Shown here: positions 7,655-33,933 of the stretch, in pieces
How the letters are laid out: every line of letters begins with the position of its first letter
Position numbering within the stretch: position 1 is the stretch's first letter
Assembly: GCA_027081275.1 (NCBI GenBank)
Contig: JALWKV010000253.1
Coordinates: 1 to 33,933, forward strand
DNA length: 33,933 nucleotides
Direction: 5' to 3'
Source: Gammaproteobacteria bacterium
GTDB taxonomy: Bacteria > Pseudomonadota > Gammaproteobacteria > UWMA-0217
Position numbers and translations under genes: made by a program
Notes under the pieces: generated by a model
Database searches by the model: none
What the model was told of the DNA's origin: nothing
What the model saw: the letters and a program-made list of their open reading frames with translations, nothing else

Positions 7655-7716
7655 GTAACTACTCAGCTTGATAGAGAATCTGTCCGTAACTGCTCAGATT
7701 GCCCCTGAGGAGTTAC
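7655..7716. repeat. E1 miniature element, copy A (internally deleted)
   Basis: The outer unit GTAACTACTCAGCTTG (7655-7670) is followed 15 nt later by GTAACTGCTCAG (7686-7697) and CTGAGGAGTTAC (7705-7716), which pair with one mismatch. Compared with the larger copies near 8.7, 17.6 and 33.6 kb, nearly the whole interior is gone. It lies in the flgM leader, between the sigma-28 promoter and the start codon. Confidence 0.8.
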
Positions 7717-8628: not shown

Positions 8629-8831
8629 GTAACTATTCAGCTCGTTCGGAAAGACATCCGTGACTGCTCAGATTGTCCCTGAAATCCGTCAGTTCAAGGC
8701 AGAATCGCACCGCCATCCATGGCTCCTTGCGATATGCAGCCCATCCATGGACATAAATGTGCGCTTACGAGTGTAAATGGCCATTTTCGAACGCAGAAAT
8801 GGCGGATTTCAGGGGTGAGCTGAGCCGTTAC
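8629..8831. repeat. E1 miniature inverted-repeat element, copy B
   Basis: The outer left unit GTAACTATTCAGCTCG (8629) is followed by the inner left arm GTGACTGCTCAGATTG at 8660. The right end at 8831 reads, reversed, GTAACGGCTCAGCTCACC. The interior has a palindromic patch around CCATCCATGG (8713 on) and the shared block ATTTTCGAACGCAGAAATGG. There is no coding capacity for a transposase. It lies between the flgA sigma-54 promoter and the flgA start. Confidence 0.85.
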
Positions 8832-8878
8832 ACCGCGATTTTCGTCTTTCTCGCAGAATCGATCTGCCTCATCTGACG

Positions 8879-12304: not shown

Positions 12305-12413
12305 GTAGGGTGGGTCAAGGAGCACAGCGACGGAGCCACCGGAACAACGCTGCCCAAACGCCAAGCGTCGCAGCGCCCTTCCCGGTGGATCCGCTGCGCT
12401 TGAGCCACCCTAC
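12305..12413. repeat. dispersed palindromic repeat with GTAGGGTGG ends
   Basis: GTAGGGTGG at 12305 and CCACCCTAC ending at 12413 form the ends of a long imperfect inverted repeat whose inner blocks (CCACCGG and CCGGTGG) also pair. This type of GTAGGGTGGGTCAAG repeat is common in proteobacterial intergenic DNA. I see no gene in it. Confidence 0.7.
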
Positions 12414-12421
12414 ACGAGAGG

Positions 12422-12580
12422 GTGTCGCAAAAGTCCGTCCAGGACTTTGCGACACACGAAAAGCAAAAAGTGCGATTTTTCCTTTTCTCACAGAAACAAC
12501 GACTTACCGTCGTTGTTTCTGGCAGCACATCCTTGTGCTGCGCGAGGTTGCCGCAAAGCTACCGCTTTTGCGACAACCTC
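12422..12580. repeat. array of four consecutive stem-loops
   Basis: Four hairpins stand in a row: GTGTCGCAAAAGTCC with GGACTTTGCGACAC (12422-12455, one bulge); CAGAAACAACGAC with GTCGTTGTTTCTG (12491-12521, perfect, 5-nt loop); CAGCACA with TGTGCTG (12523-12540, perfect); and GAGGTTG..GCAAAGC with GCTTTTGC..CAACCTC (12544-12580). The GTGTCGCAAAA end recurs inverted as TTTTGCGACAC at 12869, so 12420-12883 could be one composite element. Confidence 0.7.
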
Positions 12581-17419: not shown

Positions 17420-17486
17420 CAACAGCAGAAGCCGGCGGAAAGGATCTGGCCGGCAAACAGAGCTTGGCTCACTCGAACATATGCCC

Positions 17487-17659
17487 GTAGCTGCTCAGAT
17501 TGCCTCTGCAATCCGCCAGTTCAAGGCAGAATCGCATCGCCATCCATGGCTCCTTGCGAAATACAGTCCCTCCATGGACATAAATGTGAGTTTACGAATT
17601 GTAAATGACCATTTTCGAACGCAGAAATGGCGAATTGCAGGGGTGATCTGAGCAGCTAC
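17487..17659. repeat. E1 miniature inverted-repeat element, copy C
   Basis: The left arm GTAGCTGCTCAGATTGCC (17487) matches the reversed right end GTAGCTGCTCAGATCACC (17659), with TGCAAT following further in on both arms. Other copies have GTAAC and TGAAAT instead, so both arms changed together. A degraded outer left unit (AGCTTGG, about 17461) may extend it. It lies in the flgK leader, after the sigma-28 promoter and 34 bp before the start codon. Confidence 0.85.
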
Positions 17660-17693
17660 AACTTCGGGCAACGGACCTTCCGGGGAAGATAGA

Positions 17694-20910: not shown

Positions 20911-21075
20911 CTCACCAGACGCTCCCGACCTGGGGCGCCCGCTGGTCGGGCAAAAGCGTCATTTTGGGTATTGGTTCACGATCTTCCGTAATCTCCCCGC
21001 CCTAAACTCTGTAACAGGAAGTCACATCCCCGCGAATTCAACCCAAGGATCGATATTGATCAAGGAGACCGATTG

Positions 21076-21885
21076 ATGAAGAAGAAGCTACTGACGGCCA
21101 TTCTCCCCCTTTCTCTGGCGCTGACGGCCTGCAGCGGCCTGCCGGTACAGATGGGCGGCGCCAAGACTACGGCAACCGGCGCGGCGGCAGGCGCAACGGC
21201 GCAAAACGCCAACAAGGATCTGGAACACTGCAGCCGGCCGCTGGGCACGCTGGCGCTCGATGAGGACACCAATTCGGACTGGTATCACCGACTGACACGC
21301 GAATACCGATTGACCAGTACCCGCCCCGTACTGCGGTTGCTGGTGCAGCAGAGCAACTGTTTCGTCGTCGTGGAACGCAGCCGCGCGGGAATGCGGCAGA
21401 TGACCAAGGAGCGGGAACTGATGAAATCGGGCGAACTGCGCGGTGGCAGCAATTTCGGCAAGGGGCAGATGGTCGCCGCCGACTATTCGCTGTCACCCAG
21501 CATCCTGTTCAGCGCCAATGACACCGGCGGCCTCGGCGGCATGCTCGGCGGCCGCATCGGCGGGTCGATCGGCGCGGCGGTGCTCGGCTCGCTGAAATTC
21601 CGCGAAGCGAACGTGATTCTCACGCTGGTCGACAATCGCTCCGGCGTCCAGGTGTCGGCATCCGAGGGCAGCGCCAAGAAAGCCGACATCGGCGTTCTGA
21701 CGGGCATTCTAGGCAGCGGCGCGGCGGGACTCGGCGGCTATTCGAAGACGCCCCAGGGCAAGGTGATCGTCGCCGCCTTTACCGACGCCTACAACCAGAT
21801 GGTACGGGCGCTGAAAAACTACAAGGCTCAGGAGGCACCCGGACCGGGCGGACTCGGCACCGGCGGCAGCCTGCGGGTCAACTGA
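21076..21885 (+). CDS. CsgG/HfaB-like outer-membrane-associated lipoprotein
   Basis: A 269-residue lipoprotein precursor: signal peptide MKKKLLTAILPLSLALTAC with lipidated C19, a Gly/Ala/Thr-rich linker (about 25-45), then a domain with TRPVLRLLVQQSNCFVVVERSRAGMRQMTKERELMKSGEL, GQMVAADYSLSPSILF and FREANVILTLVDNRSGVQVSASEGSAKK. This order matches the CsgG/HfaB fold, which forms secretion pores in curli and holdfast systems. An LGGMLGGRIGGSIGAAVLG stretch could be a membrane loop. AGGAG lies 8 nt before ATG 21076. No curli genes are nearby; its function, flagellar or otherwise, is unknown. Its neighbours suggest co-acquisition with the flagellar locus. Confidence 0.72.
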   Translation: MKKKLLTAILPLSLALTACSGLPVQMGGAKTTATGAAAGATAQNANKDLEHCSRPLGTLALDEDTNSDWYHRLTREYRLTSTRPVLRLLVQQSNCFVVVERSRAGMRQMTKERELMKSGELRGGSNFGKGQMVAADYSLSPSILFSANDTGGLGGMLGGRIGGSIGAAVLGSLKFREANVILTLVDNRSGVQVSASEGSAKKADIGVLTGILGSGAAGLGGYSKTPQGKVIVAAFTDAYNQMVRALKNYKAQEAPGPGGLGTGGSLRVN

Positions 21886-22029: not shown

Positions 22030-25000
22030 CTATCCCACCTTGCGCGAACCCTTCACCTGCACCACCGGCACGCGGCTGTTGACCGGCGTCAGCGCCCGCA
22101 CCCACTCGTCCAGGTGATCTTCCAGAATGAAGTAGCGCTTGACCCAGCTCCGCAATTTATCGCCATCCTTCGCGGCGCGCTCCAGATCGTTCACGTAATC
22201 CATGATCGCCTCGACCCAGGCCTCGGTCTCGTTCGGCACCCTTCGCACCGGGGCATCGTAGCTCTGGTATGGCGCAATGTCGGTACAGACGACGGGGCAA
22301 CCGAGAATGCCGTATTCGAGCAGGCGGAGATTGCTCTTCGCCTCGTTGAAACGGTGCTGCTCCAGCGGCGCGACGGCGATGTCGAGATTGAGCGACGCCA
22401 TTTTCGCCGGGTATTTGTCATAGCTGACCCAGTCGGTGTCGTATTCGGCGACGAGGGGCCGGATCTCTTCCGGGCACATCCCCATGAACACCCAGTCGAC
22501 CCTTTCCGCCGTCTGCTTGACGACATCGATGATGATCTCGAGATCCCCTCCGTGCTGTTGCGCGCCGACCCAGCCGACCCGCGGCTTTTTCCCGGCCCGC
22601 CGCTTCGATTCCAGCGGCAGCCACATGTCGCGACGCAACCGGTTGGGAATGACGCGGATATCGTCGATCATGTCGGCATAGGCATCGGCCAGCGTGCGCG
22701 TGGTGACGATCATCCGGTCGCAGAGCGACAGCGCCTTGCGGATGCGGGCCCGCGCGTTGCGGAAATTGCCGGTGTAGTGCCTGTATACTGAGCTCTTCTC
22801 CGGAATTTCCGTCACCAGATCGTCGAGACTGAAAACGCGGAATATATCGGGCTTGTGCCGGGCAATGTCCTCCAGCAGGTTGACGTGCATGTCGTCGATG
22901 CCCGCCTGCACCACCAGCACATCCGGATCCATGCGCACGATGGGCGCCATTTTGAGCTGGCCACCGATGCCTTCGACGACGCGATAATGCTCGGTCTGCT
23001 GCAGGGCCGCATCGGAAATGGCATCGAACGGCTGGATGATGCGGTAATCGCCACTGCCACCGCGCAGCGGCAGCCCCAGCACGCGGGTGCGCTCGTGGAA
23101 ATGGACATCCCAGTTCAGCGGCAGCTTGTCGTTCACCAGAAAGGCGTTGCCGGGCGACAGGTCGAGATTCGGATTGTAGGCCGGATCGTTGGCGATCTTC
23201 GGCAGCCACCGTTCCAGCAGCGCCTCGCGCGCCTCTTCGAACGCGACTATCCCTTCGAGATATTCACGTCCCTTTCTGCGCTCGTTGATCGTGGCATTGC
23301 CCTTGTAGGCCATCAGCAGCGAAAAAGGCGTCCACACCACCTTGTATCCGGCCTCGCCGACCCGCAGACAGAGATCGACATCGAGAAAATCCTTGCCGAA
23401 ACGCTCCGCATCCATGCCACCGAGTTCGGTGAACAGCGACTTGCGCACGACCAGGCAGGTATCGCTGACGGCGGAGTAGTTCTGGTCGATCTGCGCCCGC
23501 CCCATATAGCCGGGACCATTGAGCGTCAGGCGCGAGACGAAGGGCTTGCCGATGACATCATCCATGCCGAGCACCAGGCCGGCGTCGAAGAGCAGCGTCG
23601 ATTCCGGATAGACGACCCGCGGGCCGACCACGCCCACCTCGGTGCGCTGCGCATGGAGCATCAGCCGCGAAAGCCACTGCGCCTGTTTCGCCTCGACGTG
23701 ATTTTTCAGAAACAGCAGGTACTCGCCTCGCGCCAGCATGCCCGCGCCGTTGCAGGCTTCGGCCACATTGACATCGGCGCCGAGACGCAGCACCGAGACA
23801 CTGCCCTCGTTCGCCGCCTCGATCGCGTCATAGAGCGCGAGCGTATCGGGATCGGTACTGCCCATGTCGGCGATGATGACCTCGAAATTGTCGTAGGCGG
23901 TGCGCTCCAACAACGATCGGATGCATGACTCGATATATTCATACTTGTCGCGAGTCGGAATGATGATCGAAACGGAAGCCTCTTCCGTGTGCAGATAGTT
24001 GACGCGCAGCGTGCGCGGCAGATAGCCCTCGCCGACCACCGCGGCGATGCCCGATCGTTCAAGGTGATTCTTGACCGTGAGGGCGATAATCGCCTCATCG
24101 GGTTCACGCCGCCCTTTCGGGGCATGCGTCAATACATCGGCAATGTGGCCGACCGATTGCTCACCATTCCTTTCGATCATCTTGAGCGCGAGATCGACCA
24201 TTTCACAGCCTGGCAGCGGCTCGATCCCGCCAACCTCCAGCAGGGCCTCACGCCTGACCCAGGCGCCCTGGCGGCAGTAGGGCATCGACCGCAGCATGTC
24301 GAGATTGATATCCGGCAGAAAACGGGGATTGCTGCGCTCGCCATCCCCGTCGATCTCATCGACATCGCTGTAGATGAAGGTCCAATCGGCGCGAAGATTT
24401 GCGTAGTCACCCAGTCGCAACAGCGCATGCTGCGGCCACTGCGTTCCCGGCTCGACAAAGCTCACCCAGTCCGCCTCGACCGTATTGATCGCTTCATTGA
24501 CCAGCGCATAGGGATCGTCATCGACGCCACACTGCAGCCACTGCAACGCCTCGATCTCCTCCCAGAGCGGATCGGGCGCCGGAGAGTCGGCAATGACCGA
24601 CAGCCGCCAGTCCTGATAGAACTGCGCCGACAGGCTGTCCAGCGTATCGCCCAGCAGCGCCTCGTCGCCGGGAAAAAGAAAGAGGACAAAATGGAACACC
24701 GGGCGATGGCGCCACTGGTACATCATCCGCTCGGCGAAGAGATGGCCGTCCACCTCCTTGAGGCCATGGGCCTCGATCCAGCGCTCATAGCGCAGATTCT
24801 GGCGCCTGGCGAAGGTTTCGGCCTGTACTGCCGACCCGTCCGCCTTTGCATCCCCCTTTTCCAGCACATCGCCCAGCAGCGCCTCCGCCGCATCAAGCCT
24901 CGCCAGAGTGGTGTTCGCATTGCTTTCGCGCCGATCGAAAGGATCGACGATGGGCGGGCTCTCGTTCAGCGTTCTGGCCAGCGAGAGAAAGAAGGCATCC

Positions 25001-26016
25001 TTGTCCTGCCGCCCTGCCAAGGGAACCTTGCCGTTCTCTACGAGGGTCGAAGCCACCGAATCGACTCGCGCGCCGAGCAGGTTTTCCAGCTCGAACACCT
25101 GCATGACACGGGAATCCTGCACCGGCTGGACCGACTTCTCGGCAGGTTGCCGCGCGGAGGCGCGCGCCTGCGTCTTCGTCACGAATTCGTCGAGCTGACC
25201 GTAGAAGCGGGATATAAGTTCTTCGTAATTCTTCCTGACGCGACCGACCGTCGCGAGCGCCTTTTCGATTTGCTCGGGCGCCGTACCCCAGGCCGCACCG
25301 TCCTTACCGAAATTGTCCTTGTGCGGAAACTCTGGCATCTCGGAATTTGGAACATAAACGACTGCACAACCACACAACTTTGCCTCGGTAGCAATGGCCG
25401 ATGGCTCATATGTATATAGTAGCCTCGACCTTTTAAGTAATTCAGCGAGCTGCTTCAGCGACCGCGGTACGCGCGGTGAAATCTCTATCGCCCCCGCCGG
25501 AACCTCACTGATGTCCCCCTGATACCGGTTTACAAAATAACATATCTCATCACGCTGACTTTCATCCACGCCTTTCAGATTGAAAATACTAAGGTCGGAT
25601 GTTGGCAGCCTGAGCGCACCATCTACCCGAAGCCCATCAGGAATGAACTCGGGTCGATACTCGAGCAGAAAATCCCCTTCGTCGAAATGTTCCGGCCCGC
25701 CTAGCTTTCCCGGCACATTGAGGAGATAGCGGACGACATTGCGCGCCTCGAGCGGGTTGCCGTGAACGACCTCGGGATAGATAACGATCGGCTCGCGCCC
25801 CTGCGCCTGGTGTCGCGCCCTGACCGCCTCGGTCAATAGCGGCGTTCGCAGCGCATCACTGCGCCCCGGCGTCGTCACATATGCCTCGAGTCCCTTCAGA
25901 TTGAGGGCATGACAGAGATAGTGGAGGACGCGGATACCCGATGACATTTCGGTGTATGGCGGCGCGACGACATAGTACGGATGACTGATATCGGTAAACA
26001 GCTCTTGATTCAACAC
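22030..26016 (-). CDS. giant multi-domain glycosyltransferase (probable flagellin/surface glycan)
   Basis: A soluble protein of about 1,328 residues that appears to join several sugar-transfer modules. Residues 1-310 look like a GT-B half (YVVAPPYTEMSSGIRVLHYLCHALN ... EPSAIATEAKLCGCAVVYV). Residues about 435-640 are a GT2-like domain (YSDVDEIDGDGERSNPRF). Residues about 675-920 are a second GT2 domain opening SVSIIIPTRDKYEYIESC. Residues about 990-1310 are a GT4-like domain with VGWVGAQQHGGDLE and FNEAKSNLRLLEYGILGCPVV. The second GT2 domain reads LLFLKNHVEA where a DD motif is usual. I prefer the GTG start at 26016, with AGGGA upstream; ATG 26073 lacks a ribosome site. Position beside the flagellins suggests filament glycosylation. 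Confidence 0.82.
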   Translation of the reverse strand: MLNQELFTDISHPYYVVAPPYTEMSSGIRVLHYLCHALNLKGLEAYVTTPGRSDALRTPLLTEAVRARHQAQGREPIVIYPEVVHGNPLEARNVVRYLLNVPGKLGGPEHFDEGDFLLEYRPEFIPDGLRVDGALRLPTSDLSIFNLKGVDESQRDEICYFVNRYQGDISEVPAGAIEISPRVPRSLKQLAELLKRSRLLYTYEPSAIATEAKLCGCAVVYVPNSEMPEFPHKDNFGKDGAAWGTAPEQIEKALATVGRVRKNYEELISRFYGQLDEFVTKTQARASARQPAEKSVQPVQDSRVMQVFELENLLGARVDSVASTLVENGKVPLAGRQDKDAFFLSLARTLNESPPIVDPFDRRESNANTTLARLDAAEALLGDVLEKGDAKADGSAVQAETFARRQNLRYERWIEAHGLKEVDGHLFAERMMYQWRHRPVFHFVLFLFPGDEALLGDTLDSLSAQFYQDWRLSVIADSPAPDPLWEEIEALQWLQCGVDDDPYALVNEAINTVEADWVSFVEPGTQWPQHALLRLGDYANLRADWTFIYSDVDEIDGDGERSNPRFLPDINLDMLRSMPYCRQGAWVRREALLEVGGIEPLPGCEMVDLALKMIERNGEQSVGHIADVLTHAPKGRREPDEAIIALTVKNHLERSGIAAVVGEGYLPRTLRVNYLHTEEASVSIIIPTRDKYEYIESCIRSLLERTAYDNFEVIIADMGSTDPDTLALYDAIEAANEGSVSVLRLGADVNVAEACNGAGMLARGEYLLFLKNHVEAKQAQWLSRLMLHAQRTEVGVVGPRVVYPESTLLFDAGLVLGMDDVIGKPFVSRLTLNGPGYMGRAQIDQNYSAVSDTCLVVRKSLFTELGGMDAERFGKDFLDVDLCLRVGEAGYKVVWTPFSLLMAYKGNATINERRKGREYLEGIVAFEEAREALLERWLPKIANDPAYNPNLDLSPGNAFLVNDKLPLNWDVHFHERTRVLGLPLRGGSGDYRIIQPFDAISDAALQQTEHYRVVEGIGGQLKMAPIVRMDPDVLVVQAGIDDMHVNLLEDIARHKPDIFRVFSLDDLVTEIPEKSSVYRHYTGNFRNARARIRKALSLCDRMIVTTRTLADAYADMIDDIRVIPNRLRRDMWLPLESKRRAGKKPRVGWVGAQQHGGDLEIIIDVVKQTAERVDWVFMGMCPEEIRPLVAEYDTDWVSYDKYPAKMASLNLDIAVAPLEQHRFNEAKSNLRLLEYGILGCPVVCTDIAPYQSYDAPVRRVPNETEAWVEAIMDYVNDLERAAKDGDKLRSWVKRYFILEDHLDEWVRALTPVNSRVPVVQVKGSRKVG

Positions 26017-26133
26017 GTTATATCTTCCCTGATTCTGATTCGATAATGGTTGGCGCCTTCCGCTTGTCCGCATGAGTCGCGCCCGTACCCCGGGACGTGC
26101 CTTGTGGCTGGCCCGGCATACCGCGGAATTTTT

Positions 26134-27381
26134 TCAACCCGCCACGGCCTCCCGTCGCGAGGCAAGCACCGCTTCGAGATAGCGCCGGTCACGGTGAATT
26201 CTCGACAGCAGGTTCGTGATCCGCGCGACATCATCGGGCTGCACGGCGTTACCGGTCGGAAAGGCAAGCACCCTTTCCAGTATCCTCTCCGTTGTCGGCA
26301 ACTGGAGATACGCCATCGGATAATAGGAGCGGTACGGCTCCATGCGATGGCAGCCTGGATAGAAGTATCGGCGCACATCGACATTTTCCGCCGCCATCAC
26401 CATGGCGAGCTCATCGCGCGACAGGCCGAACACCGACTCATCCACCTCGATGATGATGTATTGGTAGTTGTTCCGCTCTTCGAGCTGATATTCGAGCAGG
26501 TCGAGACCCGGGATGGCGCTGATGCCCTCGCGATAGGCAAGATAGTTCTCCCGGTTGTGGGCAACAAAGGCCTGCATGTTATCGAGCGAGACCAGCCCCA
26601 TCGCTGCCTGCACCTCGTTCATCTTTCCGTTTATGCCGAGGTAGGCGACGGAATCACGACCGTCGAAGCCGAAATTCTTCATCAACCGGATGCGCGCCGC
26701 GAGTTCGTCATCGTTGGTCACGACCGCGCCGCCCTCGAAAGTATTGATGAACTTGGTCGCGTGAAAACTGAACACTTCGGCGTTGCCGAACTGCCCGACC
26801 ATGTTTCCCTTGTAGGAGACGCCGAACGCATGCGCCGAATCGAAAAGCAGCTTCAGGCCATGTTTCTCCGCTATCTTTTCGAGCTTCTCGACATAACAGG
26901 GGCGCCCCCAGAGATTGACCGCCAAAATTCCGGTCGTTCGCGGCGTAATCAGGGCCTCGATACGCGAGGAATCGATGTGGTGGAGATTTTCATCGATGTC
27001 GCAGAAAACGGGCGTGATCTCCTGCCACTGCAAGGCATGGGCCGTCGCAACAAAAGTCATCGACGGCATGATCACCTCCCCCGTCATTCCCAGCGCGCGA
27101 ATGGCGATTTCAAGTGCGATCGTTCCATTGGCCATGGCGATGCAATGCTTGACGTTAGCGATCTCGGCGACACGTCGCTCGAATTCCTTGACGAGAGGAC
27201 CACCGTTACTGAGCATGCGTCGGTCCAGAATATCTTCGATGCGCGCGAGAATATCCTCCTTTAGTCCAATATTGGGTGTACCGACATGCAGGGGATGAGA
27301 AAACAGTGGCCGCCCCCCTTCAATAGCATAGCGGACTAGACTACGTGGCTGGATTAACATCGAACTCCCTTGCGTGACCAT
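26134..27381 (-). CDS. DegT/DnrJ/EryC1/StrS-type sugar aminotransferase
   Basis: PLP-dependent enzyme that probably puts an amino group on a nucleotide-linked keto-sugar. The 415-residue protein has the family layout: NGTIALEIAIRALGMTGEVIMPSMTFVATAHAL (about 85-117), the PLP-phosphate region LLFDSAHAFG (about 183-192), Schiff-base lysine K210 in SFHATKFINTFEGGAVV, and NGKMNEVQAAMG. Two starts are plausible: ATG 27381 (AAGG 8 nt upstream) and ATG 27360 (AAGGGAG 4 nt upstream). It lies between the glycosyltransferase and the methyltransferase on the same strand, fitting synthesis of an amino-sugar for flagellin. The exact sugar cannot be read from sequence. Confidence 0.88.
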   Translation of the reverse strand: MVTQGSSMLIQPRSLVRYAIEGGRPLFSHPLHVGTPNIGLKEDILARIEDILDRRMLSNGGPLVKEFERRVAEIANVKHCIAMANGTIALEIAIRALGMTGEVIMPSMTFVATAHALQWQEITPVFCDIDENLHHIDSSRIEALITPRTTGILAVNLWGRPCYVEKLEKIAEKHGLKLLFDSAHAFGVSYKGNMVGQFGNAEVFSFHATKFINTFEGGAVVTNDDELAARIRLMKNFGFDGRDSVAYLGINGKMNEVQAAMGLVSLDNMQAFVAHNRENYLAYREGISAIPGLDLLEYQLEERNNYQYIIIEVDESVFGLSRDELAMVMAAENVDVRRYFYPGCHRMEPYRSYYPMAYLQLPTTERILERVLAFPTGNAVQPDDVARITNLLSRIHRDRRYLEAVLASRREAVAG

Positions 27382-27433
27382 CTATTTTCCTTAACTCCTT
27401 CCTGAGCGCCACACTTGCCCCCCTATGCGTTCA

Positions 27434-27530
27434 CCCTGTCGTTGCATGAACTTCGGGCGTCAAATCGAGGAAGCGCTGTAATAGTGGCGTTTTCCTCGCA
27501 CCAAGGCGGAAACTCATGCAACACTAAGGG
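27434..27530. repeat. E2 miniature inverted-repeat element (short copy)
   Basis: The ends are CCCTGTCGTTGCATGAAC (27434) and, reversed from 27530, CCCTTAGTGTTGCATGAG, with a shared GCTGTAATAGTGGCG interior. It matches the larger element at 33622-33811. Its right end overlaps the last codons and the stop of the methyltransferase gene. I see no target duplication at this copy. Confidence 0.75.
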
Positions 27531-28299
27531 GGCCCCTCTTTTTCGATCTCATTATAAACAACGGCCTGTTCAGAAATTCACCCAGACGATCGTCCCGCCC
27601 AATATTTCTTGCCCCCACCTCACTGTAGACAACACGGCCACCGCTCAATCTCTCGGCGATCCCTATACTCTCAATATCCCAATATTCATCTACACCGTAC
27701 CGAATGAAGTCAATTACCTCTCTCTTCTCCCCATTCTCAAAAAGCGGATGGCGTATATCGCCCTTCCAGTTATAGCCGAGCTGGAAAACCAGATACTTGG
27801 CCATACTGGCCAACTGGCGCAGGGAATCCAGGATTGCACTCTTGGCCTGACTGACAGATCGAACCCCCACCCCATAGTCGTCTCCAACATGATGCAAGAC
27901 GTTCAACAAAAGGCATACATCGACCTCAAACCGGTCCCCATCTTCTTCAAAGCTGAGGTACCTGGAAACGACATCAACCCTGTCGTTCCATCCAAGAAGG
28001 GAAACAGCCTCCCGAACAAACTCACTATGGGCTTTGTTACCTTCAATATACAGCGCCTTCCGCACTCCTCTTTCGATCAGTTCCAGAGTGAAGTACCCCG
28101 TATTACCACCGACATCCGCAATAGTTGCATCATCAAAGGAAAGTCGACTCAGCATAAAATGCAGACGCTCTTCTTCCCATCTAGACCTCACATTACCTGA
28201 TACTCCATCCATCACCGACCTGATTGGCGATGCCAGCACCTGGTATTGACTATGCTTGCTAGCCTTGTCATACAACTCTGTCAAACGGCAGCTACTCAT
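27514..28299 (-). CDS. SAM-dependent methyltransferase (class I)
   Basis: A 261-residue cytosolic methyltransferase with a Rossmann SAM-binding motif IADVGGNTGYFTLELIERG (about 60-78), an acidic residue after beta-2 (ALYIEGNK, about 83-90), and VDVCLLLNVLHHVGDDYG (about 127-144). The target is unknown; an O- or N-methyl group on the filament glycan is the contextual guess. AAAGGAG precedes the ATG by 11 nt, and the start overlaps the ATP-grasp gene end by 8 bp. The final residues (about PLSVA) and the stop are encoded by the E2 element, so the native C-terminus was probably changed by the insertion. DNA here is clearly more A/T-rich than the flg genes. Confidence 0.82.
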   Translation of the reverse strand: MSSCRLTELYDKASKHSQYQVLASPIRSVMDGVSGNVRSRWEEERLHFMLSRLSFDDATIADVGGNTGYFTLELIERGVRKALYIEGNKAHSEFVREAVSLLGWNDRVDVVSRYLSFEEDGDRFEVDVCLLLNVLHHVGDDYGVGVRSVSQAKSAILDSLRQLASMAKYLVFQLGYNWKGDIRHPLFENGEKREVIDFIRYGVDEYWDIESIGIAERLSGGRVVYSEVGARNIGRDDRLGEFLNRPLFIMRSKKRGPLSVA

Positions 28300-29422
28300 A
28301 ACGATCTCGTCTCCTTTGTTCGAGGCAGTATCTGAGGGTGTCCTCCCTGCAAAAAAGGTCTGACACTCTTATCTTGCAGTAGTCCTGAAAAAAATCCTTC
28401 TCCGTGAATCGGTGAAATACAACGGACGATCCCGAACCGCCCATCCCATCAGACCAGAAATAATATTCGATAGATTCAGAGCGAGGAGGAACTCTCGGGA
28501 TGTCAAACCCACAGCCCCTAAGCAGCCCACCAAACAGATCTATATTATTGTCAACACAGAACTGCATTGGCCCCCATAAACGCGGATTCGCTTCAATCAT
28601 GCAGCAGGAGTCAGACACGTCATCGAGGCGCACTTCAACCATAATCAGACCATAAAACCCAATATCCTCAAGCATACTGACATATCTAGCTGCGCTATCA
28701 GTCAGGTGAAAATCCGAACGCTTCGCCAGTATGATTGATCCACCCCCAACTTGCTGGAGGAGATTTTCCTGAGAAAAGACAACAGTTTCTGATACACCAT
28801 CTCGCTTGGCAATATATGCGAGCAAATAGACACTTCTACCCTCAACATACTGTTGAAAAAAATAGTCGCGCCCATCTTCCCCGCACTGAAAGCGATCATA
28901 CTCCTCGTGGGAAGTAATGATATATGGCAAAAGCTGCTTCCCAGATGAGGACAAATACGACCGTGGCTTTGCCACAAATGGGAGCTCGTCTGGAATCGTG
29001 CCATATTCCTTTGGCACATCAAGACCATACTCCTGGCATATTCCACAAAAACTATGCTTATCTGATATTCGTTCGTATAGGTTTCGATCAACCAATGGCA
29101 CGATGCAGCGATCCGACTCGATATACTCCCTATATCTGAGCAGAAATCGGTTCAGATACTCCGAAGATGGCAGGATAACAACTTTCGCACAACCATGATC
29201 ATCATATAGTGAGCGAACCCATCCAGTGACAAGATCGACACCCAGCCCCCCCCCATTCCTTACAGCAAAGACTTTGTCGCTGTAATCGGTCAGAAATATA
29301 GGGTCATCTCTATCTTTAGCGACAATAAAGAACGGCACCCGAAACTCAGTCGCCCACCTACAAAACGATACAACGGCCCGGAAGTTGTACCCCGACACAA
29401 TCAAAACAGCTTGTTTACTCAT
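28292..29422 (-). CDS. ATP-grasp family ligase
   Basis: A 376-residue ATP-dependent carboxylate-amine/thiol ligase-like enzyme. It has an N-terminal Rossmann-like preATP domain (VLIVSGYNFRAVVSFCRWATE), an ATP-lid region with FVAKPRSYLSSSGKQLL (about 147-163), FFQQYVEGRSVYLLAYIA (about 187-204), and the metal-binding segment MVEVRLD ... CMIEANPRLWGPMQF (about 260-290). Substrates are not deducible. Next to an amino-sugar aminotransferase it could attach an amino acid or acyl group to a sugar amine. It is first in the minus-strand run, with no promoter I could recognise. Base composition is A/T-richer than the surroundings, suggesting transfer. Confidence 0.82.
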   Translation of the reverse strand: MSKQAVLIVSGYNFRAVVSFCRWATEFRVPFFIVAKDRDDPIFLTDYSDKVFAVRNGGGLGVDLVTGWVRSLYDDHGCAKVVILPSSEYLNRFLLRYREYIESDRCIVPLVDRNLYERISDKHSFCGICQEYGLDVPKEYGTIPDELPFVAKPRSYLSSSGKQLLPYIITSHEEYDRFQCGEDGRDYFFQQYVEGRSVYLLAYIAKRDGVSETVVFSQENLLQQVGGGSIILAKRSDFHLTDSAARYVSMLEDIGFYGLIMVEVRLDDVSDSCCMIEANPRLWGPMQFCVDNNIDLFGGLLRGCGFDIPRVPPRSESIEYYFWSDGMGGSGSSVVFHRFTEKDFFQDYCKIRVSDLFCREDTLRYCLEQRRRDRYE

Positions 29423-30076: not shown

Positions 30077-30103
30077 TAAATTCTTCCCGCCTCGGACCGA
30101 TAA
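30077..30103 (+). promoter_or_regulatory. sigma-28 promoter for flagellin 1
   Basis: TAAA (30077-30080), exactly 15 nt, then ACCGATAA (30096-30103), one mismatch from GCCGATAA. The block CCGATAACCCCCTTG is shared with the flagellin 3 promoter. Confidence 0.85.
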
Positions 30104-30179: not shown

Positions 30180-31034
30180 ATGCCTCAGACAATCAACACC
30201 AACATGTTTTCGCTCAACGCCCAGCGCAACCTGGATCGTTCCCAGGGCGCCATGGGTAAAGCCATTCAGCGCCTCTCATCGGGCCTGCGCATCAATAGTG
30301 CGAAAGACGACGCCGCCGGCCTGGCCGTCGCCGAAGGCATTACATCAAAAATCCGCGGCCTGGACGTTGCAGCACGGAATGCCAACGACGGCATCTCGCT
30401 GGCGCAGACCGCAGAAGCGGCTCTGGGCGAGATCACCAACAACCTGCAGCGTATCCGTGAACTGGCCGTTCAATCCGCCAACGGGACGCTCGGCGACACC
30501 GAGCGCGGTTACCTGCAGACGGAAGTAGACGAACTGACTGCGGAAATCGCGCGTATCGTCGACGACACTGAATTCAATGGTAGCAAGCTGTTCAGCGCGA
30601 CCGGTGCGGCAAGCTCCGTCGAGATCCAGGTCGGTGCCAACAGCGGCGAGAAGATCACCATCACCAACAACAGCCTGACCGGCTTGAACGCTTACGGCAC
30701 TGCCGCCAAGACAGTCGATATCTCGACCCAATCCGCGGCCGAGGCCGTCCTCGACACTGCATCAGGCTCTACAACCGGCATGGACGCGGACATCGGCAGA
30801 GTCATCAACACCCGTTCGCAAATGGGAGCGATCCAGAACCGCTTCGAGTCGGTCATCTCCAACATCAACAGCTACAAGGAAGGTCTCCAGGCCGCGCATT
30901 CGCGAATCATGGATACCGACTATGCCGAGACAACCGCCGAGCTGGCTCGTACCCAGGTGCTGCAGCAGGCCGGTGTCGCCATGGTCGCGCAGGCCAACCA
31001 GTTGCCGCAGGGCGTACTGCGACTGCTTGGATAA
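30180..31034 (+). CDS. fliC: flagellin, copy 1
   Basis: Filament subunit exported through the flagellum. The 284-residue protein has the conserved D0/D1 N-terminus ([37 protein letters not shown], about 5-55) and C-terminus ([38 protein letters not shown], about 216-284), with only about 60 variable residues between, so there is essentially no outer D2/D3 domain. Ser/Thr in the middle ([14 protein letters not shown]) are possible glycosylation sites. AGGA lies about 9 nt before the ATG. A strong terminator follows. Three paralogues stand in tandem; this one is closest to copy 3. Confidence 0.96.
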
Positions 31035-31055
31035 GCGGCTTCGGCTGCTCCACGC

Positions 31056-31090
31056 AAAAGGCCGTGAAGCAATCGCCTCACGGCCTTTTT
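31056..31090 (+). terminator. intrinsic terminator after flagellin 1
   Basis: AAAAGGCCGTGA (31056-31067) and TCACGGCCTTTT (31078-31089) pair perfectly across a 10-nt loop and end in a T-run. Confidence 0.9.
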
Positions 31091-31220
31091 CATTTTTACA
31101 TTCCCGTCATTGCCTCCGACGACGGATAAAACCGTTCATGCCCGTCTATCCACCGTTCGTCTGCCGGATCAGGAGACCGGCACATCGATACTAAAGTTCC
31201 TGGCGAACCTGCCGAAAACC

Positions 31221-31237
31221 TTGGTAAGCCATTTGCA
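31221..31237 (+). promoter_or_regulatory. candidate sigma-54 promoter for flagellin 2
   Basis: TTGGTAAG-CCAT-TTGCA has the exact GG-N10-GC spacing of RpoN sites and the -12 TTGCA, with two mismatches in the -24 box. The start would be near 31248, 36 nt before the flagellin 2 ATG. No acceptable sigma-28 site is visible for this gene. Confidence 0.55.
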
Positions 31238-31283
31238 CTGGCTTGCACACAACAAAAACAAATAATAAGAAAGGTAACCAACA

Positions 31284-32120
31284 ATGCCTCAGACTATCAA
31301 CACGAACATGTTCTCTCTCAACGCTCAGCGGAACCTCAACCGTTCGCAGAGCGCCATGGGACAGGCAATCCAGCGACTCTCCTCGGGACTCCGCGTCAAC
31401 AGTGCAAAGGACGATGCGGCCGGCCTTGCCGTAGCCGAGGGGATGACTTCCAAGATTCGCGGTCTGGACGTCGCCGCGCGCAATGCCAACGACGGCATCT
31501 CTCTGGCGCAGACCGCGGAAGCAGCACTCGGCGAGATCACCAACAACCTGCAGCGCATTCGCGAACTGGCGGTTCAGTCCGCCAACGGCACGCTGGGTGA
31601 TACCGAGCGCGGTTACCTGCAGACTGAGGTCGACGAGCTGACGGCCGAGATCACCCGCATCATCGACGACACCGAATTCAACGGCACCAAGCTCTTCGCG
31701 GCCGACGCCACTGCTACCGTCCAGGTCGGCGCCAACAGCGGCGAGAACATCGATATCACAATGAGCAGCCTCAAAGGATTGAACGCATATGGTGCAGGAG
31801 CGAAACAGGTAGACATCAGCACCCTCACTGGCGCGGAAGCAGTACTCGCTGCGGGTAGCGGGGGAATGACGGAAGACATCAATACAGTCATCAATACCCG
31901 CTCCAGGATGGGCGCGATCCAGAACCGCTTCGAGTCGGTCATCTCCAACATCAACAGCTACAAGGAAGGTCTCCAGGCCGCACGCTCGCGGATCATGGAC
32001 ACCGACTACGCCTCCACCACTGCCGAGCTGGCGCGCACCCAGGTGCTGCAGCAGGCGGGCATCGCCATGGTCGCACAGGCCAACCAGATTCCCTCTGGCG
32101 TCCTGCGACTGGTCGGTTAA
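31284..32120 (+). CDS. fliC: flagellin, copy 2
   Basis: Filament subunit of 278 residues, with the same conserved N- and C-terminal helices as its neighbours but the most divergent of the three in the middle (about 140-210; DITMSSLKGLNAYGAGAKQVDISTLTGAEAV) and in the C-terminal tail ([24 protein letters not shown]). AAAGGT lies 8 nt before the ATG. Its promoter region differs from those of copies 1 and 3 and carries a sigma-54-like site. A hairpin with a T-run follows the stop. Confidence 0.95.
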   Translation: MPQTINTNMFSLNAQRNLNRSQSAMGQAIQRLSSGLRVNSAKDDAAGLAVAEGMTSKIRGLDVAARNANDGISLAQTAEAALGEITNNLQRIRELAVQSANGTLGDTERGYLQTEVDELTAEITRIIDDTEFNGTKLFAADATATVQVGANSGENIDITMSSLKGLNAYGAGAKQVDISTLTGAEAVLAAGSGGMTEDINTVINTRSRMGAIQNRFESVISNINSYKEGLQAARSRIMDTDYASTTAELARTQVLQQAGIAMVAQANQIPSGVLRLVG

Positions 32121-32142
32121 CAACAAATCGTTCGACACAGAC

Positions 32143-32178
32143 GCCGGTTCCGGGCACTGTCCGGGGCCGGCATTTTTT
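32143..32178 (+). terminator. intrinsic terminator after flagellin 2
   Basis: GCCGG..CCGG pairs with CCGG..CCGGC around a short loop (32143-32171) and is followed by ATTTTTTG. Confidence 0.85.
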
Positions 32179-32445
32179 GTTTGCAATCAGCAAAACACCT
32201 GCATTCGTTTCGGTGCAAGAAATGCACCCCACATCGTAGGAGAGCATCCCCCCCTGAGGTCTCACGCAGGGTGCGTACCACGCAGCAGGCATGGCTGCGA
32301 CAATACACGCAGCGATCAGTAATGCTCCCTTCCCCTCCGCTCAAAGGAATCCGATACCATCGCGGTTACCCACATACCAGGACGACGGATCGTCGCTTTT
32401 TTATTCCCGCCAGTCGGCAGCCGCCGCTGATGCCCGGAAAACGGC

Positions 32446-32472
32446 TAATGACGCCCCGCCCGCCGCCGATAA
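32446..32472 (+). promoter_or_regulatory. sigma-28 promoter for flagellin 3
   Basis: TAAT (32446-32449), exactly 15 nt, then a perfect GCCGATAA (32465-32472). Only the last base of the -35 differs from consensus. The rest of the gap from 32180 holds a GTGCAAGAAATGCACC-type palindrome at about 32212 and no gene. Confidence 0.82.
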
Positions 32473-32554
32473 CCCCCTTGACCCCACGATCGAAAGCGGT
32501 TGCACAAGATACCGCCCGTGGAACGAAACAGACAATAAACAATAGGGATGAATC

Positions 32555-33397
32555 ATGCCTCAGACAATCAACACCAACATGTTTTCGCTCAACGCCCAGC
32601 GCAACCTGGATCGCTCGCAGGGCGCCATGGGTAAAGCCATTCAGCGCCTCTCTTCGGGCCTGCGCATCAACAGCGCGAAAGACGACGCCGCCGGCCTGGC
32701 CGTCGCCGAAGGTATCACCTCGAAAATCCGCGGCCTGGACGTTGCCGCGCGCAATGCCAACGACGGCATCTCGCTGGCACAGACTGCCGAAGCGGCGCTC
32801 AGTGAAATCACCAACAACCTCCAGCGCATTCGCGAACTGGCGGTTCAGTCCGCCAACGGTACGCTGGGCGACACCGAACGCAGCTACCTGCAAACAGAGG
32901 TAGACGAGCTGACTTCGGAAATCAAGCGGATCGTCGATGACACCGAGTTCAACGGCACCAAGCTGTTTGCAGCATCCAGTACGGTCGACATCCAGGTTGG
33001 TGCCAATAGCGGCGAGAAGATCACTCTGACAACTACAGATCTCACAAACCTGAACGCCTATGGTGGCGCAGGGAAAGTAGATATCTCAACACAAACTGCC
33101 GCAGAAGCGGTTCTTGACACCGCCTCTTCGAGCACGACAGGAATGGACGCCGACATCGGAAAAGTAATCAACACCCGTTCCGAAATGGGTGCCGTGCAGA
33201 ACCGCTTCGAGTCGGTCATCTCCAACATCAACAGCTACAAGGAAGGTCTCCAGGCTGCGCGTTCGCGGATCATGGATACCGACTATGCCGAGACAACCGC
33301 CGAGCTGGCTCGCACCCAGGTGCTGCAGCAGGCAGGCGTCGCCATGGTAGCCCAGGCCAACCAGTTGCCGCAGGGCGTGCTGCGACTCCTCGGCTAA
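32555..33397 (+). CDS. fliC: flagellin, copy 3
   Basis: Filament subunit of 280 residues. The first 75 or so residues and the last 70 are nearly identical to copy 1 ([40 protein letters not shown]), while the middle (about 140-205; [22 protein letters not shown]) differs. Outer domains are absent as in the other copies. ATAGGGA lies about 7 nt before the ATG. Behind a sigma-28 promoter, it probably contributes to the same filament as copy 1. Confidence 0.96.
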
Positions 33398-33435: not shown

Positions 33436-33621
33436 CATTCCCCACCCCCCGTTTTCTCCACTGACAACATGACAGTAGAGGCACGCCATTAAAACAGTGC
33501 CGTCAGATCGGCGGGAAGAGAAAACGTAACGTAAGTATTATTCAGCTTGGGCGAAGGCGCCCCCGTAACTGCTCAGATTGCCCCTGAAATCTGACAGTTC
33601 AAGGCAGAAAATGTGAGTTTA

Positions 33622-33811
33622 CCCTATCGTTGCATAAAGTTCTGTCTCGACCCGTGGGAAATGCTGTAATAGTAGCGTTTGACGCTATTTTCCGGTCTGT
33701 CGCTAGACCGAACCATTGGTTAGGTCTAGCGACAGACCGGGAACAGGTATCAAACACCTATATTTACAGCGTTTCCTCGCTTTGACACCCGAAGTTTATG
33801 CAACGTTAGGG
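33622..33811. mobile_element. E2 miniature inverted-repeat element (long copy) inserted in E1
   Basis: The ends are CCCTATCGTTGCATAAAG and, reversed, CCCTAACGTTGCATAAAC. It is flanked by TTTA at 33618-33621 and 33812-33815, a 4-bp target duplication confirmed by comparison with the uninterrupted E1 copies. It encodes no transposase, so it is a non-autonomous element. Confidence 0.85.
33692..33740. repeat. perfect 18-bp stem palindrome at the centre of E2
   Basis: The left arm 33692-33709 (beginning CCGGTCTGTCGC) and right arm 33723-33740 are exact inverse complements around a 13-nt spacer. The short E2 copy at 27434 lacks it, so it may be a third-level insertion or the part deleted from the short copy. 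Confidence 0.85.
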
Positions 33812-33933
33812 TTTACAAGTGTAAATGACCATTTTCGAACGCAGAAATGGCGGATTTCAGGGGTGAGCTGAGTAGTTACTACGTAGCAAGCTCCACTTGC
33901 AGGAGGAGCACGAAATAACAACAACAACGCCTC

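Follow-up and report, generated by a model that had tools for sequence, protein, structure and literature searches.

The window analysed here is the complete 33,933-nucleotide contig JALWKV010000253.1 (C253) of a gammaproteobacterial assembly (GCA_027081275.1; 3.19 Mb in 297 contigs, 98.5% complete). Between flgL and three flagellin genes it carries a run of four minus-strand genes encoding, in order of transcription, an ATP-grasp enzyme (ATPG), a methyltransferase (MT), an aminotransferase (AT) and a giant glycosyltransferase (GT). With somewhat better than even confidence, we read this run as a flagellin-glycan locus, at which viosamine that has been acylated (probably by an amino acid) and methylated would be attached to flagellin by means of a portable cassette. 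As judged by sequence comparison, the conserved unit is AT, ATPG and MT: three genes, not four. An initial annotation of this DNA had proposed that an amino sugar, a ligase and a methylation step serve to modify the filament, and the presence of the trio at flagellar loci elsewhere supports that route. The same annotation had treated all four genes as one set, a view that we do not retain, since GT belongs to the lineage and differs only in its N-terminal module.

Layout of the locus

The four minus-strand frames beside the flagellins were found exactly where the initial annotation had placed them (22030-29422); all are intact, and the list of open reading frames (ORFs) gives the transcription order as ATPG > MT > AT > GT. 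The principal features are as follows.

28292..29422, minus strand: ATPG, predicted ATP-grasp carboxylate-amine ligase, first gene of the run (ORF of 376 residues; predicted fold)
27514..28299, minus strand: MT, S-adenosylmethionine (SAM) methyltransferase (ORF of 261 residues; weak CmoB-like similarity)
26134..27381, minus strand: AT, DesI-like sugar 4-aminotransferase (ORF of 415 residues; DesI is the best model and structure)
22030..26073, minus strand: GT, multi-module glycosyltransferase, presumed flagellin glycan transferase (ORF of 1347 residues; PF00535)
25117..26073, minus strand: N-terminal module of GT, residues 1-319, which differs between two genomes of the same genus
27382..27513, no strand: gap between MT and AT with pieces of a dispersed repeat (49 base pairs at 87.8% and 68 base pairs at 76.5% against 33.6-33.8 kb)
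30180..31034, plus strand: flagellin 1, presumed acceptor (PF00669, E=2.5e-46; sigma28-like site, 11/12, at 30077)
31284..32120, plus strand: flagellin 2, presumed acceptor (PF00669, E=2.3e-46; sigma28-like site, 11/12, at 31192)
32555..33397, plus strand: flagellin 3, presumed acceptor (PF00669, E=4.8e-47; sigma28-like site, 11/12, at 32446)

The reading frames of ATPG and MT overlap by 8 bases, while 132 bases separate MT from AT. Flanked by the flgL side and the side of the three flagellins, all of which exceed the PF00669 cut-off, the cluster lies among flagellar genes and combines a glycosyltransferase with sugar genes, as a flagellin island does.

A predicted route to a capped viosamine

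In the pathway that we propose, RmlA and RmlB, encoded elsewhere in the genome, would make dTDP-4-keto-6-deoxyglucose (dTDP, deoxythymidine diphosphate), which AT would turn into dTDP-4-amino-4,6-dideoxyglucose (viosamine). ATPG would use ATP to activate a carboxylic acid (an amino acid is the likeliest) and join it through an amide link to the 4-amine of the sugar; MT would methylate the acylated sugar, most likely on the group just added; and GT would place the modified viosamine into a glycan on the three flagellins. What we infer in this route is the precise identity of the sugar and of the acyl group, which atom is methylated, and that flagellin is the acceptor. Successive action of ATPG and MT on one group is suggested by their overlap, fusion and co-occurrence; an amino acid is suggested as the acid because methylation alternates with a second ATP-grasp ligation, which fits a free amine; and the position of the cluster, together with six other flagellar loci, points to flagellin as the acceptor.

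AT is a member of the DegT/DnrJ/EryC1/StrS family (PF01041, 357.6 bits against a cut-off of 19.8). Its first NCBIfam model is TIGR04427 (DesI), the runner-up being PseC at 215.1 bits, and its first match among PDB sequences is 2po3_A (E=1.3e-120; runner-up 5.5e-53), a chain listed as '4-dehydrase' in an entry that we take to be DesI. DesI catalyses the C4 amination of TDP-4-keto-6-deoxyglucose and works in macrolide sugar synthesis. QdtB (3frk) ranks far behind it, which is not the pattern of an FdtB-type, 3-amino-sugar route. RmlA (TIGR01207) and RmlB (TIGR01181) are both encoded above cut-offs, near each other, on contig C211 of the same genome, and an FdtA-type 3,4-ketoisomerase (PF05523) had no match in these 297 contigs, at 98.5% completeness. 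A DesI-like AT, the presence of RmlA and RmlB, and the lack of a PF05523 match together lead us to expect a 4-amino rather than a 3-amino sugar, and the product of AT is probably dTDP-viosamine. DesI is likewise the best model (250-473 bits) for the partner aminotransferases tested in five other loci, and rmlA- and rmlB-like genes, recognized by mutual similarity and by eye, occur close to the cassette, no more than a few genes away, in four loci (L038, L039, L101 and L104).

ATPG exceeds the cut-off of no Pfam or NCBIfam model, its sole match being PF14397 at 15.7 (cut-off 31.4), and a search of PDB sequences returned no match for ATPG alone or for a profile of seven family members. Two relatives do exceed a Pfam cut-off, that of PF02655 (23.2), with 28.1 in genome G1291 and 34.9 in genome G1299. 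An AlphaFold2 model, built on an alignment of the seven members, has a mean predicted local distance difference test score (pLDDT) of 87.7; its best 50 structural matches score Z 20.3-22.2 and are, to judge by their titles, ATP-grasp enzymes. Among them are 2pn1 (Z 22.2), PylC (Z 22.1) and biotin carboxylases (Z ~21). ATPG keeps 59 of the 60 positions that are invariant in ten other family members, including K152, E263, E277 and N279, presumably ligands of ATP and Mg. ATPG is thus best described as a predicted ATP-grasp carboxylate-amine ligase, with amide formation on an amino sugar as its putative reaction. No match to ATPG was found among plasmids and phages, and neither MT nor ATPG matched PHROGs.

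Database models serve MT no better: no Pfam or NCBIfam model is over its cut-off, and the CmoB-like similarity is weak. An MT profile matched 56 PDB sequences (best E=1.6e-05), mainly in the SAM-binding core of arginine methyltransferases, which does not indicate the substrate, and Foldseek returned a SAM-methyltransferase fold for which CmoB and many other SAM enzymes score alike, so that the comparison is not decisive. All 34 positions invariant in eight other family members are kept. The bond between MT and ATPG is close. Wherever both are separate genes they overlap or lie at most ~20 bases apart; in G1291 they form a single protein of 643 residues, whose MT half shares 73% identity with the stand-alone MT of G1299; and among 393 genomes searched in the order of Anaerovirgula, the MT family turned up in two, each time at ATPG.

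The same sugar might be decorated in another way, with MT acting as a VioM-like sugar O-methyltransferase and ATPG adding a hydroxy- or fatty-acid-like acid. A precedent exists in the flagellin glycan of Pseudomonas syringae, N-(3-hydroxy-1-oxobutyl)-2-O-methylviosamine (PMC3927599; published systems are described here and below from the part of each report that was available), and that system and the window both have a sugar aminotransferase, a methyltransferase and a giant glycosyltransferase. We nevertheless regard this scheme as rather unlikely: the overlap, fusion and co-occurrence by which MT tracks ATPG fit action on the group that ATPG adds, and the second ATP-grasp that can take the place of MT suits a group bearing an amine.

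Distribution of the three-gene unit

In the order of the window, ATPG is present in one of five genomes, namely the source genome. A draw from the class gave 9 of 369 genomes at E<=1e-5 (the source genome, one strong match in G297 at 40% identity, and seven weak ones), and a draw from the phylum with a two-sequence profile gave 2 of 398 at E<=1e-10, the source genome and one weak match. A scan of contigs with the window ATPG alone found no relative. The scan was also run with short peptide patterns from a two-sequence alignment (window ATPG and the copy from the polysaccharide locus of G297), without being centred on a chosen genome, and returned six loci, one of which (L041) is the G297 contig. 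Within the family of a Paenibacillus genome, 3 of 295 genomes matched at E<=1e-40, the Paenibacillus itself included; in the order of Anaerovirgula, 22 of 393 matched at E<=1e-6, three strongly (Anaerovirgula among them) and 19 weakly (E 1.5e-15 to 6.7e-7). With these 19 left aside, there are 11 loci with a clear member of the ATPG family, counting the window.

AT is found in 10 of the 11 and MT in nine, once fused to ATPG. The trio is conserved beyond a single phylum. The two loci that lack MT, in Anaerovirgula (L038) and Halomonas (L043), each have a second ATP-grasp, fused to ATPG in the former (L038:9977-12331) and separate in the latter (L043:8451-9635), the two being 44% identical to each other. 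The genome search for a four-gene set that the initial annotation had called for yields a recurrent trio, of which GT is not part.

Eight weak ATP-grasp matches (L029-L036), obtained in the draws from class and phylum, were considered as further trio loci and rejected: the 13-20 kb of sequence that surrounds them contains no MT match, so none carries the trio. In L030, L031, L032 and L036 a DegT-type gene with distant similarity to AT (24-30% over 128-176 residues) is found near the ATP-grasp gene, and several of the eight resemble polysaccharide clusters by eye.

Flagellar and polysaccharide settings

Flagellin genes were detected by tblastn on the cassette contig of six other genomes, those of Anaerovirgula (L038), Paenibacillus dokdonensis (L067), G942 (L074), G973 (L076), G1291 (L101) and G1299 (L104), lying ~4 to 16 kb away from ATPG; further flagellar genes in the islands, such as fliD, fliS and fliW, were recognized by eye. 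Five of the six carry the trio, and the sixth, Anaerovirgula, carries ATPG, AT and the second ATP-grasp without MT. No flagellin was found by tblastn within the 15-21 kb of sequence at L039, L041, L042 and L043, which hold polysaccharide genes (recognized by eye and partly by similarity). Of the six genomes from the uncentred scan, five have flagellins somewhere and one, Algoriphagus, has none.

Two side observations concern these islands. A radical SAM/SPASM gene stands between AT and rmlA in two of them, both from the order of Anaerovirgula (L101:14642-15592, identified by Pfam, and L104:6922-7872, identified by its near-identical start), and the Paenibacillus flagellar glycosylation island contains a frame (L067:9978-11567) with the look of a transposase, as judged by eye.

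Unrooted trees were built for all three proteins. In the AT tree the window copy groups with two gammaproteobacterial polysaccharide copies, and the AT of the Algoriphagus polysaccharide locus groups with the Bacillota flagellar ones. The MT tree places the window copy with the three from polysaccharide loci and separates it from the flagellar copies of Bacillota (split support 100). In the ATPG tree the position of the window has a support of only 61, and the flagellar ATPG of Anaerovirgula groups with polysaccharide copies (95). From these groupings it is probable that the cassette has been recruited to flagella more than once.

A bolder proposal can be built on this distribution, and we offer it tentatively, as possible rather than probable: AT, ATPG and MT would constitute an undescribed, portable pathway to N-methyl-aminoacyl-viosamine (or to dipeptidyl-viosamine where the second ATP-grasp replaces MT), which has passed, within Pseudomonadota, Bacillota and Bacteroidota, from surface polysaccharides to flagella or back, and which reaches flagellin loci when the cassette and the first module of a resident giant glycosyltransferase are swapped as one.

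An apparently resident glycosyltransferase and a probably recent cassette

GT has a GT2 module (PF00535) above cut-off at residues 702-884 and, below cut-off, stretches of GT2 type (~471-611) and GT1 type (1164-1296). From residue 320 to its end at 1347, it shares 71% identity with the flagellin-adjacent glycosyltransferase of G002, a genome of the same genus. Residues 1-319 have no match in that protein, whose own N-terminus is a GT2 module (PF13712), and searches with this N-terminal part of GT gave nothing in Pfam at 0.1 and nothing significant in the PDB. A family relative, G004, encodes a glycosyltransferase of 2717 residues (L022:6141-14294) next to two flagellin genes, with a related C-terminal part at 46% identity.

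The flgL side of the window comprises flgN, flgA, flgH and flgJ (assigned by Pfam), flgK and flgL (recognized by eye, with a PF00669 match as well for flgL) and then, between flgL and the cluster, a CsgG/LpoB-like lipoprotein gene (21073-21885; PF03783 at 29.5 bits, cut-off 20.8). G002 keeps the order flgK, flgL, csgG, glycosyltransferase, flagellins, without the AT-ATPG-MT trio; the sole listed frame of at least 100 residues in the interval between its glycosyltransferase and flagellins encodes a methyltransferase of 226 residues (L021:10243-10923), which has no blastp match to MT. DNA similarity between the window and G002 ends at 24756 and restarts at the first flagellin. Taken by itself, the other methyltransferase that occupies the place of the cassette in G002 marks a variable glycan site. 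The CsgG/LpoB-like gene of the window is 84% conserved in G002, and the three flagellin genes at 30180-33397 are closely related and in tandem, the same-genus locus L021 showing two, with its contig ending just past the second.

Composition separates the cassette from its surroundings. G+C content is 46.6% in ATPG, 49.2% in MT and 56.7% in AT, against 59-65% in flgK, flgL, csgG, the flagellins and codons 314-1347 of GT. At third positions it is 0.47 in ATPG, 0.53 in MT and an intermediate 0.70 in AT, against 0.72-0.83 in flgK, flgL, csgG and the flagellins, and the shift starts within GT itself, with 0.62 in codons 1-313 against 0.79 in the remainder. The initial annotation had described the last two genes as A/T-richer than their surroundings, as if acquired; the composition bears this out, and the trio is missing from the G002 locus. 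Given the comparison with G002 and G004, the DNA breakpoint and the difference in composition between the two sides of codon 313, GT looks like a resident of the lineage rather than part of the acquired unit, beside which the cassette and the first GT module have been exchanged. The cassette is portable and was probably acquired recently, and the N-terminal module of GT probably arrived with it.

Evidence that weighs against a flagellin-glycan locus

Several results count against the reading of the run as a working flagellin-glycan locus with an aminoacylated viosamine. AT scores under the DesI equivalog cut-off (497.9 against 650 bits), as do all the partner aminotransferases tested in the five other loci. 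The ATPG model ties PylC with a CPSase-like protein and biotin carboxylases and thus singles out no amino-acid ligase, so the fold gives the class of chemistry and not the substrate. In Halomonas (L043) there is no AT in the 21 kb of sequence that contains ATPG.

Expression is a second difficulty. Ahead of ATPG no sigma28-like site above chance was found (best 8/12, equalled or exceeded in 280 of 300 shuffles), and pieces of the dispersed repeat lie in the 132-base gap between MT and AT, as a result of which the four genes may not form a single transcript. The gap has no support as a structured RNA (z-score -1.0). It could be supposed from the low G+C, the repeat pieces and the lack of a clear flagellar promoter that decayed or unexpressed imports among the four genes leave the run without a product. 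Against this, the four frames are intact and the invariant positions are retained almost throughout (59/60 in ATPG, 34/34 in MT and 51 of the 55 that are invariant among other members of the AT family), and we consider such decay very improbable.

The settings of the cassette present the third difficulty. Seven of the 11 loci, the window counted, are flagellar and four are polysaccharide loci. The figures are biased: for four of the seven, the search had as its centre one or other of the two flagellar genomes that the scan had returned; in the uncentred scan itself, two of six are flagellar and four polysaccharide. The initial annotation had held that a cluster occurring mainly beside O-antigen loci would speak against a role in the filament, and this last count goes half of the way towards that outcome. 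The cassette might accordingly serve a cell-surface polysaccharide and adjoin the flagellins by chance, a suggestion to which the AT and MT trees, where the window copies cluster with polysaccharide and not with Bacillota flagellar ones, also lend weight. We judge it improbable nonetheless: the cluster lies between flgL and fliC, adjoining a glycosyltransferase that flanks flagellins in G002 and G004, and the trio or its variant occurs at flagellar loci in six other genomes. A flagellin-glycan locus remains the reading that we prefer.

Other features of the window

A dispersed short repeat occurs at 7684-7708, 8658-8832, 17484-17662, 27426-27492 (the gap between MT and AT) and 33562-33882, in pieces of 25-262 base pairs that are 72-100% identical, and recurs in two further loci of the same genome (L047 and L049) and in the same-genus locus L021 (5889-6087). 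At 12416-12553 lies a very stable multi-hairpin element (z-score -7.8 for 12410-12556), with copies in another locus of the same genome (L053, 95.7%) and at L021:1536-1674 (84%). Rfam gave no match at the gathering threshold, this element included.

Comparison with known systems

Two characterized enzymes stand close to the cassette. DesI resembles AT as both its leading curated model and its best solved structure, and differs in that AT falls under the equivalog cut-off. PylC, the L-lysine-Ne-D-ornithine ligase, couples an amino acid to an amine; it resembles ATPG in overall ATP-grasp fold (Z 22.1 over 289 residues, root-mean-square deviation 3.3) but is 16% identical and belongs to another pathway.

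At the level of whole systems, capping the amino sugar of a flagellin with an amino-acid-type group is already a known principle. To the extent that the initial annotation regarded the pathway as undescribed, the principle is in print (Clostridioides difficile, PMC5207246; Shewanella, PMC3765264), while the combination of AT, ATPG and MT was not found described. A literature search, drawing on a minority of the papers that it listed and with most subscription journals outside its reach, gave no account that pairs a DesI-like aminotransferase with ATPG and MT of these families, nor one of the pattern of fusion and partner swap, and the term 'ATP-grasp' was not found in the available text of papers on flagellin islands of Enterobacteriaceae and Geobacillus. 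In Campylobacter, phase-variable genes for an ATP-grasp protein (CFT03427_1510) and a SAM methyltransferase (CFT03427_1512) lie two locus tags apart (PMC6321876).

P. syringae makes its viosamine glycan from an island of vioA, vioM, vioT, vioS, vioB, vioR and acp (PMC3927599). Like the window, it has a viosamine aminotransferase for a flagellin glycan, a methyltransferase and a giant glycosyltransferase (VioT, 1173 residues). Unlike the window, it obtains the acyl group from ketoacyl-ACP (acyl carrier protein) enzymes and VioB, and its seven ORFs, as described in the available part of the report, include no ATP-grasp and lie between gs and hk. Genes of the VioB, VioS, VioR and ACP types had no Pfam match among 15 window proteins scanned and were not seen by eye in the other ORFs, the rest of the genome being outside this search.

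Shewanella oneidensis sfmABCDE contains an adjacent methyltransferase (sfmD) and ATP-grasp gene (sfmE), both involved in modifying flagellin; mutants of the operon have an altered flagellin mass, and the modification includes a methylated second moiety (PMC3765264). The window too has an adjacent pair of this kind by its flagellins. The sfm system differs in being of the nonulosonic-acid type, with a methyltransferase of 395 residues and, in the available description, an operon without an aminotransferase or giant glycosyltransferase.

The type B flagellin glycan of C. difficile has a terminal Fuc3N whose acyl substituent is a peptide made of glycine, alanine and taurine (PMC5207245, which also cites N-methyl-glutamyl legionaminic acid on Clostridium botulinum flagellin). 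Its locus, CDR20291_0241-0247, holds FdtB-like and ATP-grasp genes, and the glycan of the ATP-grasp mutant is truncated and lacks the terminal residue (PMC5207246). As there, the flagellin island of the window has aminotransferase and ATP-grasp genes. By contrast, the C. difficile system uses a 3-amino sugar (Fuc3N) and has FemAB-like and ornithine-cyclodeaminase-like genes, neither of which Pfam showed in a scan of 15 window proteins, the other ORFs of the window having been judged by eye and the remainder of the genome lying outside that search; and its ATP-grasp is assigned to PF13535, while ATPG is above no ATP-grasp model, a comparison made by family assignment. If our reading is true, amino-acid-capped flagellin sugars of the C. 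difficile type would extend to another sugar and to more phyla. ATPG and MT would represent two enzyme families poorly served by database models, whose fusion and partner swap imply a two-step order, and the locus suggests a way of altering a flagellin glycan, in which one cassette and one glycosyltransferase module are replaced at a fixed site.

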